From assembly GCA_029268555.1 (NCBI GenBank), contig JAQWNN010000040.1:1-40007 (forward strand): a stretch of 40,007 bases of DNA, given 5' to 3'. Made by a program: the position numbers and the translations under genes. Positions 3,217-23,436 of this stretch are shown here, in pieces (position 1 is the first letter of the stretch; every line of letters begins with the position of its first letter). The notes under the pieces were generated by a model, which worked only from the letters and a program-made list of their open reading frames with translations, searched no databases and was not told the origin of the DNA. Origin of the DNA: Flavobacteriaceae bacterium. GTDB lineage: Bacteria > Bacteroidota > Bacteroidia > Flavobacteriales > Flavobacteriaceae.

Positions 3217-3528
3217 CTATCGATATTCTTCTCTAACTGGACTAAATACATCCATTAATCTACATGGGGTTAATGCTTTTCCCGAGTGAGGCTCATTAGA
3301 GGGTATAGAAACTATATCTCCAGCAGTATACAAATTAGTTTCACCAAAGAGAGTGAATTCAAATTCACCATCCATGATATACATCATTTGCTCATGATGA
3401 TGATGATGTTTTGGAACCGTTGCCCCTTGTTCAATATTCCAAAAAGCCCACGTAATTTTCTGGCCGTGGATCATTTTTCCATGACATCCAGGCATAATTT
3501 CTTTACTTTCTGTATTTTTTAGATTCAT
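3217..3528 (-). CDS. Small cupin-domain protein
   Basis: A 103-residue single-domain cupin. Cupin motif 1 is seen as GATVPK followed by five consecutive His, then EQMMYIMDGEFEF; motif 2 is seen around AGDIVSIPSNEPHSG. The metal-binding His/His/Glu set and the distal His are all present, so a mononuclear metal (Fe, Mn, Ni or Zn) is expected. The run of five His is longer than a normal HxH motif. It sits 3 bp upstream of an SDR gene and downstream of a PhyH-type dioxygenase. Cupins of this size include isomerases, dioxygenases and sugar-binding sensors; I cannot choose among them. Confidence 0.83.
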   Translation of the reverse strand: MNLKNTESKEIMPGCHGKMIHGQKITWAFWNIEQGATVPKHHHHHEQMMYIMDGEFEFTLFGETNLYTAGDIVSIPSNEPHSGKALTPCRLMDVFSPVREEYR

Positions 3529-3631: not shown

Positions 3632-4444
3632 TTAGTATTCAAATAAAATCGGATTTATAGCTGAATTGACCTCACTACCAATTTTTACCCCAGGACACCA
3701 TGTTTCCCAATCGTTTTGTTGACCCTCGTTTTCGGGTGCTTTAAGAGTTATATTTTTATCCATATAAATAATAGTCATTACTTTACGTATTTCATCTGTT
3801 TCATTCTTACCTGCTCGGTGAAAAACCCAACCAGAATGAAAACTAATCTCACCCAAGTCAAATGATTCAATTATATGAGGAAAATCATTGATCTTTAAAT
3901 TCTTTTGAATTAACTGTTCACTTCTTTCGCTGATAGAAAGTTCACGTCCAGTTAAAACTTCTTGGCTACCTGCGCTAAATTCCAAAGGCCCCATTTCTAA
4001 GGATGTGGCCTGTAAAGGTATCCATGCAGTTATGGTTTTTGAAGATGATAAAGGCCAATAGTATTGATCAGCATGCCATGGTGTAATACCTCCTCCAGCT
4101 TCTTTAAATAAGGCTTGATCGTGATATAATCTTACACCATCAACCTCCATTAAATCTGTAGCCAATTGAGCTAAACGTTTATTAAAAATTAGGTTTTTGA
4201 TTTTCTCATCTTCCCGCCATAGATTGAAGAGTTGTAAAAAAGCTTTTTCGTAGGTATTTCTTTGCTCAAGTGGTGTAGATTGTTGATTTATTTCCTCTAC
4301 TTTAATCGAAACTATTTCATTGAAATAATTCAAGGTTTCTTCATCTAGTACATGTTTTAATTTAATAAAGGCATGTTTTTTATAAAAGTCAATTTGGTCT
4401 TTACTTAATTTATAAGGCTGATTTAAAATAGAAAAATCCATCAT
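3632..4444 (-). CDS. Phytanoyl-CoA dioxygenase (PhyH) family protein
   Basis: A 270-residue protein of the Fe(II)/2-oxoglutarate-dependent PhyH family. The iron-binding HxD motif is in PWHADQYYWPL (His124 and Asp126 from the first Met). The distal iron-ligand His lies in FHSGWVFHRAGKN, and the 2-oxoglutarate-binding Arg is probably that of EIRKVMTIIYM. Bacterial members hydroxylate varied small molecules (ectoine, amino acid derivatives, phosphonates, halogenation substrates), so the substrate is open. Two Met codons occur in tandem (4444 and 4441); either may start the protein. It lies 103 bp upstream of the cupin-SDR-GNAT genes on the same strand and may belong to the same pathway (inference). 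Confidence 0.85.
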   Translation of the reverse strand: MMDFSILNQPYKLSKDQIDFYKKHAFIKLKHVLDEETLNYFNEIVSIKVEEINQQSTPLEQRNTYEKAFLQLFNLWREDEKIKNLIFNKRLAQLATDLMEVDGVRLYHDQALFKEAGGGITPWHADQYYWPLSSSKTITAWIPLQATSLEMGPLEFSAGSQEVLTGRELSISERSEQLIQKNLKINDFPHIIESFDLGEISFHSGWVFHRAGKNETDEIRKVMTIIYMDKNITLKAPENEGQQNDWETWCPGVKIGSEVNSAINPILFEY

Positions 4445-5962: not shown

Positions 5963-6372
5963 TTATTTTTCCTTAGGTTGAAAATTTATACTGGCAGAAT
6001 TTACACAATAACGTTCTCCTGTTGCTGTTGGTCCATCTTGGAAGACATGTCCTTGATGTCACCACAATTTGAGCATACAATTTCCGTTCGTAACATATCG
6101 TGGGTTGTGTCTCTGATAAATTCCAAAGCACCCTTGATTGACGCATCATAACTTGGCCATCCACAGCTACTATCAAATTTACTTGAAGAGTCATAAAGCG
6201 ATGCACCACAACCTCTACATTTATAGGTTCCTTCTTCAAAATGGTCATTGTACTTTCCTGTAAAGGGATATTCCGTTCCCTTTTTTCTTAAAATTTGGAA
6301 AGAATTAGAATCGAGTTTTGTTTTCCATTCCTCCTCACTTTTTTGAACAGGATAAATTTTATGGTTTTTCAT
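5963..6372 (-). pseudogene. msrB: Peptide methionine (R)-S-oxide reductase, frameshifted, catalytic Cys out of frame
   Basis: The first 104 or so residues are a good MsrB: the Zn-binding pairs CRGC and CSNC are present, with the family segment CGWPSYDASIKGALEF. After CSNCG the frame is lost and the ORF ends at 6001. Restoring one G near 6058-6061 (GGTGACATC to GGTGGACATC) gives [19 protein letters not shown], then [14 protein letters not shown], ending at a TAA at 5963. The lost part contains the catalytic Cys (RYCVNS), so the protein as written cannot reduce methionine sulfoxide by the known mechanism. This is either a real one-base deletion or a sequencing error. The gene overlaps the 3' end of the intact upstream msrB by 14 bp, and redundancy could tolerate its loss. 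Confidence 0.85.
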
Positions 6373-11998: not shown

Positions 11999-14206
11999 AT
12001 GGCTAAAAAACCAACCGAAAAATCTACAACAGAAAAAGCAGCTGATAAGAAAATAACTGCAAAAAAAGAAACTGTTAAGAAAGCTATCCCCAAAAAATCT
12101 TCAACAAAAAAAGAAACTTCTAAAAAAGCAGCTGTCAAGAAAACAACAGCAAAAAAAGAGACTTCTAAAAAAGTAGCTGTCAAGAAAACAACAGTAAAAA
12201 AAGAAACTTCTAAAAAAGCAGCTGTCAAGAAAACAACAGCAAAAAAAGAGACTTCTAAAAAAGCAGCTGTCAAGAAAACAACAGCAAAAAAAGAAACTTC
12301 TAAAAAAGCAGCTGTCAAAAAATCAACTGCAAAAAAAGCAGAAGAAAATAAAGAAATAATACCAAAAACAAAAAAAACTATATCTAGGGTTGAACTTACT
12401 GATATGCCTGAGGATGTTGCTGTAAAGCAAGAAGAAGTTTTTTCCAAAGAAAAAAATGATGCTTCTCAATCTGAATTTTTATCCAACTTTAACTGGCATA
12501 ATTATAAAGAAGGTATTGATGTGATTGAAGACAAGCAGTTAGATGAGTTCGAAAAATTAGTAAAAGATAATTTTGTAGATACTGCAGATGACGATGTAAT
12601 AGAAGGAGAGGTTATTTATATGACAGACCGTGAAGCTATTATTGACATTAATGCCAAATCTGAAGGTGTAATATCACTTAATGAATTCCGATATAATCCC
12701 GAATTAAAAGTAGGGGACAAGGTAGAAGTAATTGTTGACATGCGTGAAGACAAATCAGGGCAATTAGTTTTATCACACAGAAAGGCACGTGTTATCAAAG
12801 CCTGGGATCGTGTAAATAATGCTCATGACAATGGTGAAATCGTAAGCGGTTTTGTTAAATGTAGAACTAAAGGAGGTATGATTGTTGACGTATTTGGTAT
12901 TGAGGCTTTCTTGCCAGGGTCACAAATCGATGTTAAACCGATTCGTGATTACGATCAATATGTAAACAAAACAATGGAGTTTAAAGTGGTAAAAATTAAC
13001 CATGAATTCAAAAATGTTGTTGTTTCACACAAAGCATTAATCGAAGCCGATATTGAAGAGCAGAAAAAAGAAATTATAGGCCAGTTGGAAAAAGGCTAAG
13101 TTCTTGAGGGTACTGTAAAAAATATTACTTCTTATGGAGTTTTTATTGATCTTGGAGGAGTTGATGGATTGATTCATATTACAGACCTTTCATGGAGTCG
13201 TATTAATCATCCAAGTGAAATATTAGAATTAGATCAGAAGCTAAATGTCGTAATTCTTGATTTTGACGACAATAAATCAAGAATTCAACTCGGTCTAAAA
13301 CAATTGAGTGCTCATCCATGGGAACAGTTATCTGAAGGTTTAAAAGAAGGTGATAAAGTAAAAGGGAAGGTGGTTGTAATTGCAGATTACGGTGCTTTTG
13401 TAGAAATCGAAGAGGGTGTCGAAGGTTTAATTCACGTATCGGAGATGTCTTGGTCTACACATTTGAGATCTGCTCAAGATTTTGTAAGTGTAGGTGATGA
13501 AGTTGACGCGATAATTCTCACACTTGATCGTGAATCAAGAAAAATGTCGTTAGGAATCAAACAAATTTCACCTGACCCATGGACTGACATTACTTCAAAA
13601 TATCCCATTGGATCAAAACATTCGGGATTGGTAAGAAATTTCACCAACTTTGGAGTATTCATTGAATTAGAAGAGGGTATTGACGGATTGGTATATATCT
13701 CTGATTTGTCTTGGACAAAGAAAGTAAAGCACCCAACTGAAATATTGGCACTTGGAGAGAAAATTGATGTGATTGTTCTTGAGTTAGATGTTGAAGGCCG
13801 AAAGCTAAGTTTAGGTCACAAGCAAACGACTGACAACCCATGGGACAAATACGAAAAAGAATTTGCATTAGATTCATCTCATACTACATCAATTACTGAA
13901 ATCGTTGATAAGGGTGCGACCATTCAGTTTAATGATGATATTGTAGCCTTTGTTCCTTCACGTCATCTTGAAAAAGAAGATGGAAGTAAACTCAAGAAAG
14001 GAGAAGAAGCTTTATTTAAAATTATTGAATTTAGTAAAGAATTCAAAAGAGTTGTTGCTTCACATACTATAACCTTTAGAGAACAAGAGATCAAAAACGT
14101 GAAGCGAGCAGCTAAAAAAGTGGCTGATTCAAATGCTGATAAAGCAACTTTAGGTGATCTTGATGCTTTAGCCAACCTTAAGGAGCAAATGGATAGTGAT
14201 AATTAG
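11999..14206 (+). CDS. rpsA: 30S ribosomal protein S1, reading frame interrupted by TAA at codon 367
   Basis: The two open segments 11999-13099 and 13100-14206 are in the same frame and together would encode 735 residues. The order is a Lys-rich repeat tail (1-125), a linker with FNWHNYKEGID, S1 domains 1-2 (about 200-350), the stop codon, then domains 3-6, with typical motifs such as SYGVFIDLGGVDGLIHITDLSW split across GGVDGL. At codon 367 TAA stands where CAA (Gln) is expected in LEKGQVLEGTVKN, a one-base C-to-T change. S1 is a ribosomal protein that binds mRNA; domains 1-2 dock on the ribosome and 3-6 hold RNA. The TTG at 13169 is not a credible separate start because it lies inside domain 3. 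Sequencing error, polymorphism, readthrough or true truncation are all possible. Confidence 0.9.
12062..12331 (+). repeat. Tandem 45-bp repeat in the S1 N-terminus (six 15-residue units)
   Basis: Residues 22-111 of S1 form six in-frame units of consensus KKETSKKAAVKKTTA. The five units at 12107-12331 are nearly identical, differing at a few positions (for example VAV for AAV, TTV for TTA); the first unit (12062-12106) is degenerate. The sequence is Lys/Ala/Thr-rich, like histone H1-type bacterial tails, and probably disordered and nucleic-acid binding. Exact multiples of three keep the frame if the copy number changes. Confidence 0.9.
13097..13099 (+). other. In-frame TAA inside rpsA
   Basis: This TAA is codon 367 counted from the ATG at 11999, between S1 domains 2 and 3. 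The frame is open before and after it. Confidence 0.95.
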
Positions 14207-14842: not shown

Positions 14843-15777
14843 AAGCACTAAGTGTTTCACATCTTTTGGGAATTAAATACCTTAAGATACAAGACATAAA
14901 CTTGATTTTTGAGACTGCTAAACATTTTAAAGAAGTCATTAATCGGCCTATAAAAAAAGTTCCAAGTCTACGAGATATTACCATTGCAAATTTGTTTTTT
15001 GAAAACAGCACTCGTACCAAGCTATCTTTTGAATTAGCTGAAAAAAGACTGAGCGCTGATGTACTTAACTTTTCAGCTAATCAATCTTCATTAAAAAAAG
15101 GAGAAACTCTGGTCGATACAGTCAATAATATATTGGCCATGAAAGTTGATATGATTGTAATTCGACATCCAAATCCTGGTGCTGCTCATTTCCTTTCAAA
15201 ACAAGTTGATTCATGTATTATAAATGCAGGAGATGGTACGCACGAGCACCCATCTCAAGCCTTATTAGATGCTTTTTCTCTCCAAGAAAAGTTTGGAGAG
15301 CTAGTTGGAAAAAGAATTGCTATTGTAGGTGATGTTTTACACTCCAGAGTTGCATTATCTAATATATATGCTTTAAAAATGTTAGGTGCTGAGGTGAGTG
15401 TGTGTGCTCCAAAATCTTTAATTCCAAAACATATTGATTCTCTTGGAGTTAAAATATCTACAGATTTATCTAAGACACTTAAATGGTGTGATGCACTAAA
15501 CATATTACGTGTTCAAAATGAGCGCATGGATTTGAATTATTTTCCATCAACAAGAGAATACACTCAAAATTTTGGACTTACTTCTAAACGGTTAAAAGCA
15601 GTAAAAAAGGAAATCGTGATTTTGCATCCTGGACCGATAAATAGAGGTGTAGAAATTAGTAGTGAAGTTGCTGATTCTGATCAATCTATTATTTTAGATC
15701 AAGTCGAAAATGGTGTAGCAATTAGGATGGCAATTATATACCTTCTAGCTTCCAAACTGAATATTTCTATTACATGA
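14839..15777 (+). CDS. pyrB: Aspartate carbamoyltransferase catalytic subunit
   Basis: A 312-residue ATCase that joins carbamoyl phosphate and aspartate in pyrimidine synthesis. The carbamoyl-phosphate motif STRTKLSFE is near residues 56-64; HPSQALLDAFSL and HPGPINRGVE are the other active-site segments. Length is normal for the catalytic chain. No pyrI regulatory chain is adjacent, so it is probably a PyrI-independent class, with control through PyrR or expression. It overlaps pyrR and the next gene by 4 bp each (ATGA). Confidence 0.96.
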   Translation: MKALSVSHLLGIKYLKIQDINLIFETAKHFKEVINRPIKKVPSLRDITIANLFFENSTRTKLSFELAEKRLSADVLNFSANQSSLKKGETLVDTVNNILAMKVDMIVIRHPNPGAAHFLSKQVDSCIINAGDGTHEHPSQALLDAFSLQEKFGELVGKRIAIVGDVLHSRVALSNIYALKMLGAEVSVCAPKSLIPKHIDSLGVKISTDLSKTLKWCDALNILRVQNERMDLNYFPSTREYTQNFGLTSKRLKAVKKEIVILHPGPINRGVEISSEVADSDQSIILDQVENGVAIRMAIIYLLASKLNISIT

Positions 15778-21694: not shown

Positions 21695-22276
21695 TTAAAA
21701 ATCTAAATCAAATTTTTTTCGAAGTTTATCCAACGAAGGATTTATTTTTAGAAGATATTGATATTTTTCTTGAGGTGAATAAATGGAATCTTCTTGATTT
21801 CTTTTCTTTATTACAATCTCAATTTTAATTCCAAAATGATTTAACTTTTCACTTATAAAAGGAATTAAATATTTCATTTCACGAGTCATTTCAACCTTGT
21901 TCATTTCATTAGCGACATCGAAACTTATAGTAGATTGACTTATTAGATCAGGGTGGTTCATTTTCATTATGGATGAAATATTTTGCTTTCCTTCGACTTT
22001 AATGTATTCTGAGTATTCATTCCAAAACTTCAAAAGACTTTTTTTATCAAATGAATCTTTTGGAAGGTTTTCCTTTTTGTCTCTAGGACGATTATTTTTT
22101 TTTGCAGCTTTTTTTACTGCAATGCTAGAAAGTGAAAATCCTGACACCTCATGTTTGATATTTTCTTCCTGCAAAGGCTCTTTTTTTTCTGAAATATTTT
22201 CTTGGAAATCAGTATTAGTTTCAGTTTCTACTCGATTAATAACTTTTACTGCATCTTCTTTTTCTTGAACAGTCAT
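21695..22276 (-). CDS. dnaX: C-terminal tau domain of DnaX, reached by frameshift from dnaX
   Basis: This is probably not an independent gene. The frame is open upstream of its ATG for 29 further codons to 22363, exactly at the A10-G run where the dnaX zero frame ends, and the joined product would be 580 residues, the usual flavobacterial DnaX size. The C-terminus (SPQEKYQYLLKINPSLDKL then RKKFDLDF) matches the end of flavobacterial DnaX as I remember it. A charged low-complexity linker (about the first 75 residues here) connects it to the AAA+ part. Tau contacts the polymerase core and the replicative helicase. If expressed alone from 22276 it would lack the clamp-loader ATPase. Confidence 0.85.
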   Translation of the reverse strand: MTVQEKEDAVKVINRVETETNTDFQENISEKKEPLQEENIKHEVSGFSLSSIAVKKAAKKNNRPRDKKENLPKDSFDKKSLLKFWNEYSEYIKVEGKQNISSIMKMNHPDLISQSTISFDVANEMNKVEMTREMKYLIPFISEKLNHFGIKIEIVIKKRNQEDSIYSPQEKYQYLLKINPSLDKLRKKFDLDF

Positions 22277-22353
22277 TTTTAATTCAGAATTTTTTCCGAT
22301 GGTCGAATTATATTGATTTTTTTGATTTAATTTATTTACTTCTTGTACTGAAA

Positions 22354-23436
22354 TTATGTAACCTTTTTTTTTTCTCCATTAAAATGGAGTGAAGCGAGTT
22401 GCATTAGGCTTAGTTCTGTATGAACTCTTTTATTGTTTACATTTTTATAGTTTACTTCAAAAGAATTTATTAAGGCAATACTATCAAGCAGATATTCGGT
22501 TGAAAGGATTTTAGTTTCCTGCTGAAAACTCTTTTTAATATCCACACCCAATTCCATTAAGGCAAGTGTACTAGGATCTTTTGCCAATATCAAATGTCTG
22601 AAAAAATCTCCTAAACCTTTTATGAATTGTAAAGGTTCGATTCCTCTTTGGAGAAGCTCATCATATGCTTTAAGTATTCCATGAATATCATTTTTAAAAA
22701 TGAATTTACCCAATTCTAAGTAAGCTTGATGGTCCAGTAGATTTAGATTATCAGCCACGTCCTTTGTAGTCAGTTTTCCTTTCGTAAAACTGACCATTCT
22801 ATCAAATATAGATAACGCATCACGCATTGCTCCTTCTGCCTTTTGAGCTATAAGATAAAGTGCACTTTCTTCAAATTGTAAGTTTCTATCCTGAGCTATT
22901 TTGACCAAATACTCTTGAATATCATTAACTGCTATTCTTTTAAAATCATATACTTGACATCTGGAAAGTACTGTAGGAATGATTTTATTTTTCTCAGTGG
23001 TTGCTAAAATAAAAATAATATGCTTCGGAGGCTCTTCTAAAGTTTTTAAAAAGGCATTGAATGCAGAGTTTGAAAGCATATGTGCCTCATCGATAATATA
23101 GATTTTGTGAGAGCCTACCTGTGGAGGTATTCGTACTTGCTCGTTAATTTTCCGAATATCTTCTACAGAGTTATTTGAAGCTGCATCAAGTTCAAAAATA
23201 TTGAAGGCAAAATCGTCATGGACAGTGCCTTCTAAAACAGATTTATTGATTTCTTTTGCCAGAATTCGAGCACAAGAAGTCTTACCAACACCCCTGGGTC
23301 CACAAAATAACAAAGCTTGAGCAAGTTGGTTTTTTTCTAGACTATTTTTTAATGTTTGCGTAATACCTTGTTGTCCAACTACATCTTCAAAACTAGTCGG
23401 TCGGTATTTAAGTGCAGAAACCACAAATGCTTCCAT
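22354..23436 (-). CDS. dnaX: DNA polymerase III gamma/tau subunit, gamma-like zero-frame product
   Basis: A 360-residue AAA+ clamp-loader subunit. Walker A is GPRGVGKTSCA, Walker B YIIDEAHMLS, sensor 1 LATTEKNK and the SRC motif is SRCQVYDFKRI; domain III helices end near 355. The zinc-binding Cys cluster of E. coli DnaX is not visible between Walker A and LDAASNNSVEDIRK. The zero frame stops three codons after GAA AAA AAA AAG, while the -1 frame continues into the tau region, so this ORF gives a gamma-like form and slippage gives tau. A -7 element ends 5 bp before the ATG, so the mRNA may be leaderless. It is divergent from rnpB. Confidence 0.95.
   Translation of the reverse strand: MEAFVVSALKYRPTSFEDVVGQQGITQTLKNSLEKNQLAQALLFCGPRGVGKTSCARILAKEINKSVLEGTVHDDFAFNIFELDAASNNSVEDIRKINEQVRIPPQVGSHKIYIIDEAHMLSNSAFNAFLKTLEEPPKHIIFILATTEKNKIIPTVLSRCQVYDFKRIAVNDIQEYLVKIAQDRNLQFEESALYLIAQKAEGAMRDALSIFDRMVSFTKGKLTTKDVADNLNLLDHQAYLELGKFIFKNDIHGILKAYDELLQRGIEPLQFIKGLGDFFRHLILAKDPSTLALMELGVDIKKSFQQETKILSTEYLLDSIALINSFEVNYKNVNNKRVHTELSLMQLASLHFNGEKKKVT
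22362..22373 (-). promoter_or_regulatory. Slippery A10-GG run at the dnaX frame junction
   Basis: On the coding strand ten A are followed by GG (GAA AAA AAA AAG GTT ACA TAA). A -1 ribosomal shift, or one extra A from transcriptional slippage, joins the upstream frame to the tau frame. The E. coli dnaX slippery site is A AAA AAG; Thermus dnaX uses an A9 run. I see no strong downstream hairpin, which favours transcriptional slippage or a sequencing length error. Confidence 0.75.

Follow-up and report, generated by a model that had tools for sequence, protein, structure and literature searches.

An in-frame TAA in the rpsA gene of a Flavobacteriaceae draft genome, most likely an error of the consensus

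Introduction

The gene for ribosomal protein bS1, rpsA, carries an in-frame TAA in the draft genome of an environmental member of Flavobacteriaceae. The question raised by this locus is whether the cell makes a shortened S1, passes the stop in some way, or has no such stop, the base being wrong in the assembly. The window, by which is meant the whole stretch of 40,007 bases that was analysed, is an entire contig (C40); the assembly to which it belongs has 1,547,219 bases (1.55 Mb) in 65 contigs and is 74.75% complete. A first-pass annotation, made from the letters alone, placed the stop exactly between S1 domains 2 and 3, expected Gln (CAA) at this position and listed sequencing error, strain polymorphism, suppression, readthrough and real truncation as possible explanations. 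It also proposed that rpsA be compared with that of close relatives and that a second copy be sought elsewhere in the genome.

The rpsA gene and its in-frame stop codon

The rpsA frame runs from an ATG at 11999 to a terminal TAG at 14204–14206 and is open on both sides of the TAA at 13097–13099, which is present as first described. When the TAA is read through, the product scores 917.9 bits on the NCBIfam model NF004953 (30S ribosomal protein S1), whose cut-off is 720, and contains six PF00575 S1 domains; these do not share a single uninterrupted frame. The features of the gene are as follows.

11999–14206, plus strand: rpsA, encoding ribosomal protein bS1, the full frame with its internal TAA (NF004953 and six Pfam S1 matches on the DNA)
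11999–12358, plus strand: Lys/Ala/Thr-rich repetitive N-terminal tail, residues 1–120, with histone H1-like HC2 similarity (PF07382 HC2, E 2.9e-13, residues 2–120)
12587–12781, plus strand: S1 domain 1 (PF00575)
12827–13033, plus strand: S1 domain 2 (PF00575)
13085–13300, plus strand: S1 domain 3, with the stop at its fifth residue (PF00575 match with one TAA inside)
13097–13099, plus strand: in-frame TAA, codon 367, Gln in relatives (frame reading and alignment)
13169–13171, plus strand: first in-frame ATG, GTG or TTG past the stop, a TTG within domain 3 (frame reading)
13343–13561, plus strand: S1 domain 4 (PF00575)
13604–13822, plus strand: S1 domain 5 (PF00575)
13892–14065, plus strand: S1 domain 6 (PF00575)

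The domain layout given at first, with domains 1–2 before the stop and domains 3–6 after it, is borne out by the six Pfam matches. The first description of the stop as lying exactly at the border of these domains is off by little: Pfam domain 3 begins at residue 363, which makes the TAA its fifth residue. Read through, the window gene resembles the six-S1-domain bS1 of Flavobacteriaceae, with all six domains and a score above the equivalog cut-off, and it differs from these proteins by the TAA at codon 367 and by its long Lys/Ala/Thr-rich tail. The length of the N-terminal tail, which matches histone H1-like HC2, varies among the seven congeners shown.

Codon 367 in relatives and the search for a second copy

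In best alignments, the window S1 is 74–89% identical to 29 congeneric loci. Together with 80 named loci, mostly from Flavobacteriaceae, these make up 109 relatives with a match at aligned codon 367, or 105 distinct loci, as four sequences are present in both sets under two labels. All 109 have Gln at this codon, encoded by CAA in 96 and by CAG in 13, and none has a stop there. The TAA is one base apart from CAA, such that the expected Gln and the single C-to-T change both agree with the relatives. The residues directly before codon 367 are identical to those of the window in the congeners shown, and those directly after it differ little. An invariable Gln in relatives is also one half of what the first-pass annotation had itself named as speaking against a real stop.

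The search for a second rpsA, made with matches to the Pfam S1 profile, found one copy only in the incomplete assembly. Two other Pfam S1 matches, one behind part of a pnp gene on contig C41 and the other in a 718-codon frame on C50, were rejected as second copies since each is a single domain.

Selection and published genetics on domains 3–6

Measured against the nearest relative (L021), domains 1–2 of the window gene have a dN of 0.009 and a dS of 1.09, and domains 3–6 a dN of 0.043 and a dS of 1.09. For comparison, the pair L021 and L015 gives a dN of 0.049 and a dS of 1.49 in domains 3–6, with aligned codons 367 and 543 excluded from the estimates. The dN/dS ratio of domains 3–6 is about 0.04, in line with intact pairs, and the release from selection expected under a functional truncation is not seen. 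Private changes at otherwise invariant columns, that is columns unchanged in all other genomes aligned to the window, were found at 1 of 181 columns in domains 1–2 and at 5 of 286 in domains 3–6, whilst the same count in nine other genomes ranges from 0 to 3 and from 0 to 9, respectively. These alignments give no sign of a lasting period in which domains 3–6 went unused.

In Escherichia coli, S1 without domains 3–6 is reported to keep its 30S binding, yet the allele is lethal, and S1 that lacks only domains 4–6 is reported to result in extremely slow growth (Duval et al. 2013, PMC3858243). This protein has the same architecture as the predicted short product of the window gene, namely domains 1–2 only, but it comes from an engineered deletion, whereas the DNA downstream of the window stop is intact and conserved. 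The ribosomes of Bacteroidia are described as hiding their anti-Shine-Dalgarno tail, and the addition of bS1 to wild-type ribosomes of Flavobacterium johnsoniae is reported to have doubled the reaction amplitude on an mRNA without a Shine-Dalgarno sequence (PMC9976891). Because of the lethal E. coli allele and this effect of bS1, it is unlikely, by analogy, that an S1 able only to dock would suffice for the cell.

Lesion load of the same assembly

The lesion load of the draft was estimated from 20 further stretches (319,900 bases) and the window, a sample of 359,907 bases onto which the open reading frames of congeners were aligned. The window genome has six internal stops in 159 gene matches (53,765 aligned codons), as against four in 684 gene matches (217,950 codons) in eleven congeners, the latter count leaving out one stop of genome G001 in a match that resembles an antisense shadow frame. 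By codons, the difference has a Fisher p of 0.006, or of 0.0015 without rpsA. A smaller reference set, used initially, had given four stops in 137 gene matches of the window genome. Among the congeners, genome G003 has a TAG (L161, 9087) within a gene whose frame is open in the congener aligned to it.

The six stopped genes are rpsA, mutS, pnp, folK, a gene for a GH3/beta-lactamase-domain protein and one unnamed gene. The mutS stop, at codon 84 (contig C4), stands where 29 of 29 relatives have Glu. The stop in the GH3/beta-lactamase-domain gene falls on a Gly in 23 of 29 relatives, and that in the unnamed gene on an Arg in 18 of 22, its ancestral codon not being certain. For pnp (C41; L164, 1767) both aligned genomes have Gln; for folK, the gene beside mutS, the two aligned genomes have Lys and Glu, such that the ancestral codon is again not certain. 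The privacy of the stop is thus well tested in four of the six genes and thinly in pnp and folK. On locus L175 of contig C4, the folK and mutS stops lie at 15681 and 17261. Taken together, the six are a mix of TAA, TAG and TGA over Gln, Glu, Lys/Glu, Gly and Arg positions, in kind and in residue much as scattered substitutions would be predicted to fall. All six are possibly first-position changes, for which 55% would be expected of each and 2.7% of six out of six, and no weight is given to this.

When the open reading frames of relatives are aligned on the window, no gene but rpsA shows an internal stop; a further stop is listed in the 5' flank of another gene (3220–3528). The first of two msrB-like genes (6001–6372, minus strand; region 5966–6372) slips frame near 6061, a point on which references from nine genomes agree. 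Residues 1–104 and 106–136 of the relatives' protein match in different frames, and in the open msrB reading frame the match to the MsrB family stops at residue 104. The finer scan for frame slips detected this one in the window genome, none in nine other genomes and one in each of two congeners, as follows.

L143, 6584 (G011): frame slip, finer scan
L156, 10027 (G021): frame slip, finer scan

A coarser scan, with pieces of 100 residues, found none in the window genome and one flagged pair each in G001, G011, G036 and G026. Stops and frame slips together amount to 7 in 159 gene matches for the window genome and 6 in 684 for the congeners (p 0.005). Isolated lesions are more frequent in this assembly than in the congeners, as would be expected if its consensus contains errors.

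The window also holds dnaX (21695–23436, minus strand), in the form of two open reading frames in different frames that meet at ten consecutive A, a length shared by all seven congeneric loci compared. This fits a described type of dnaX with two reading frames and poly-A slippage (PMC3711429). The window dnaX looks like conserved recoding and not an error.

A probable error of the draft consensus

The TAA is probably an isolated single-base substitution in the draft consensus, with base-calling, amplification or low coverage as the most likely source, and the cells probably make a full-length bS1 of six domains. The base is most likely wrong in the assembly rather than in the cell. An error is considered most likely, and not a short working protein, because similar small breaks are found in other housekeeping genes of the same draft. 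The same reading is favoured by the Gln found in every relative, by the constraint on domains 3–6, by the excess of stops together with the msrB slip, by the reported lethality of the same truncation in E. coli and by the presence of one rpsA copy in the assembly. Living cells would then make full-length bS1 that works in the ordinary way, with domains 1–2 docking on the 30S subunit and domains 3–6 holding the mRNA. Sequencing or assembly error is the best fit among the options first listed.

Two observations point the other way, one of which is the preference for rpsA that is considered below. The other is that the genes of the window show no rise in radical private missense changes. There are 8 at 4,345 invariant columns (0.0018 per column), within the range of 0.0004–0.0043 in other genomes, although this test has low power and is too weak to detect an error rate of roughly 7e-4 per base, as implied by the stops.

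A possible real but non-functional allele

It is possible, though unlikely, that the TAA is a real non-functional allele, either a recent deleterious nonsense variant, unfixed in the species, or one that a mixture of strains brought into the consensus. Lesions in several genes of the draft would agree with this, as would the constraint still seen in rpsA, which is what a very recent mutation would leave. Moreover, the mutS stop, lacking in 29 of 29 relatives, makes a mutator strain conceivable, whilst the events are too few for a mutation spectrum. However, the equivalent allele is reported as lethal in E. coli, and a cell with such an allele as its sole rpsA would be expected not to grow. A living strain would also have a heavy load to bear with six stops among 159 gene matches, several of them in central genes.

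Readthrough, suppression and reassignment

A real stop that is read through or suppressed, whether by leaky termination or by a suppressor tRNA, would allow some full-length S1 to be made, and this is rather improbable. Purifying selection persists behind the stop, and all three stop codons occur internally in the draft, which is compatible with a general leakiness of termination. The tRNA genes include tRNA-Gln(TTG), a possible near-cognate reader of UAA. Against this, none of the 23 tRNA genes found in the incomplete genome has a stop-reading anticodon. A second in-frame stop within five codons of gene ends is not enriched either, with a value of 0.32 for the window genome and 0.21–0.44 for others; TAA ends 67% of 147 genes. 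The structure downstream of the TAA has a fold z-score of −0.49, which is nothing unusual, and this, along with the absence of the stop from all 109 relatives, led to the rejection of programmed readthrough.

Reassignment of a stop codon was likewise rejected. No single reassigned codon explains the stops, because all three kinds occur and the residues beneath them (Gln, Glu, Lys/Glu, Gly and Arg) differ, and no matching tRNA was found. As with known recoded stops, be they programmed readthrough or reassignment, the window rpsA has an open and conserved frame on both sides of one stop. Unlike them, its TAA comes without conservation, stimulatory structure, consistent residue or any suppressor tRNA found.

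Stops in rpsA of other Flavobacteriales

In-frame stops were found in four of 34 near-complete congeneric copies of rpsA, those of the window genome (G000), G026, G029 and G017, at unrelated codons; two of the 34 are without part of the tail and two are without the last 60 residues on their contig. In G026 (L015/L158) a TGA lies at aligned codon 543, the eighth residue of domain 5, where the window genome and each of 108 others have Gly. G029 (L027) and G017 (L030) have a TAA in the tail between a conserved start and domain 1, with no ATG between. No gene other than rpsA has such a stop in those parts of G026, G017 and G029 that were sampled.

Control genes of the genus have no stop in 162 copies among the matches listed (clpC 31, lon 32, ppk 35, infB 34 and rpoC 30), which, in a comparison made after the data had been seen and with a variable tail included, differs from rpsA with a p of 0.0008. 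Three of these controls (clpC, lon and ppk) are genes of the window, and that they are intact in its genome was known beforehand. Only matches over the family cut-off were counted for infB and rpoC, several infB matches below it, probably EF-Tu-like, having stops listed. Without the window genome the counts are 3 of 33 for rpsA and 0 of 157 for the controls (p 0.005), and the domain part alone gives 1 of 33 (p 0.17). A wider control set that also takes in mutS, the GH3-type gene and the unnamed gene, again with the window genome excluded, has a stop in 1 of 221 copies (p 0.007), internal to the GH3-type gene of G013. Two mutS stops were left uncounted, namely a TAA of G023 at residue 853 of 855 and one listed for a second copy of G003.

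A draw across the order matched rpsA in 181 of 196 genomes and flagged at least six more genomes (G064, G182, G069, G038, G121 and G173), of which the first three were inspected. In G064 (L376), from another family, a real in-frame TAA lies at aligned codon 358, nine codons upstream of 367, where 110 of 110 aligned sequences have Glu; 10 other gene matches on the rest of its contig are free of stops. The stops of G026, G029, G017 and G064 are at four different codons. Other flagged stops were rejected, those of G182 and G069 as lying outside the gene, those of G007 and G028 as upstream of the start and that of G018 as not found inside the gene, along with five N-terminal stops among the named loci that precede a start codon. 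The three stops found in the domain part (G000, G026 and G064) all lie within linkers or no further than eight residues into a domain. Such sites make up 25% of positions, and the outcome has a chance of 1.6% when calculated post hoc.

These counts sit uneasily with consensus error, since random error should favour no single gene, and the apparent recurrence of rpsA stops in Flavobacteriales is a lead. In its fuller form, nonsense alleles of rpsA would arise repeatedly among uncultivated Flavobacteriales, at the borders of domains or close to them, with a short S1 either tolerated or made beside a full-length pool through leaky termination or strain mixture, such that some ribosomes would carry a docking-only S1. 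This proposal is very doubtful.

Truncation and gene fission

That a two-domain S1, made up of the tail and domains 1–2, is the working product, docks on the ribosome without the mRNA-binding arm, and is tolerated since the phylum hardly uses Shine-Dalgarno pairing, is highly improbable. The stop does lie at the start of domain 3, the TAA of G064 is close by and the TGA of G026 is similarly near the start of a domain, with the post hoc clustering of all three as noted above. Nevertheless, deletion of domains 3–6 is reported to be lethal in E. coli despite 30S binding, and the reported help of bS1 to initiation on mRNA without a Shine-Dalgarno sequence in F. johnsoniae implies that the arm should matter more, not less. 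Selection on domains 3–6 is not relaxed and no relative shares the stop. The first-pass hint of a neat break, and with it of a real truncation, finds no backing in these results, and the other stops of the assembly, such as those at mutS codon 84 and in pnp, are at positions that are not neat.

Gene fission, with domains 3–6 translated separately by re-initiation past the stop, is the least credible reading: the downstream frame is open for 368 codons and conserved, but re-initiation is unlikely given that the first start-like codon is a TTG at the 24th codon past the stop, already inside domain 3, that the first ATG, at 13445, is in domain 4, and that no relative has the stop.

Implications

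Before biological claims are made from a lone stop in an essential gene, the lesion load of the draft assembly in which it lies should be taken into account. If the TAA were real, a cell that lives with only two S1 domains, or with leaky termination, would be at odds with the E. coli genetics on the minimal S1, and this in a phylum whose ribosomes make no ordinary use of Shine-Dalgarno pairing.
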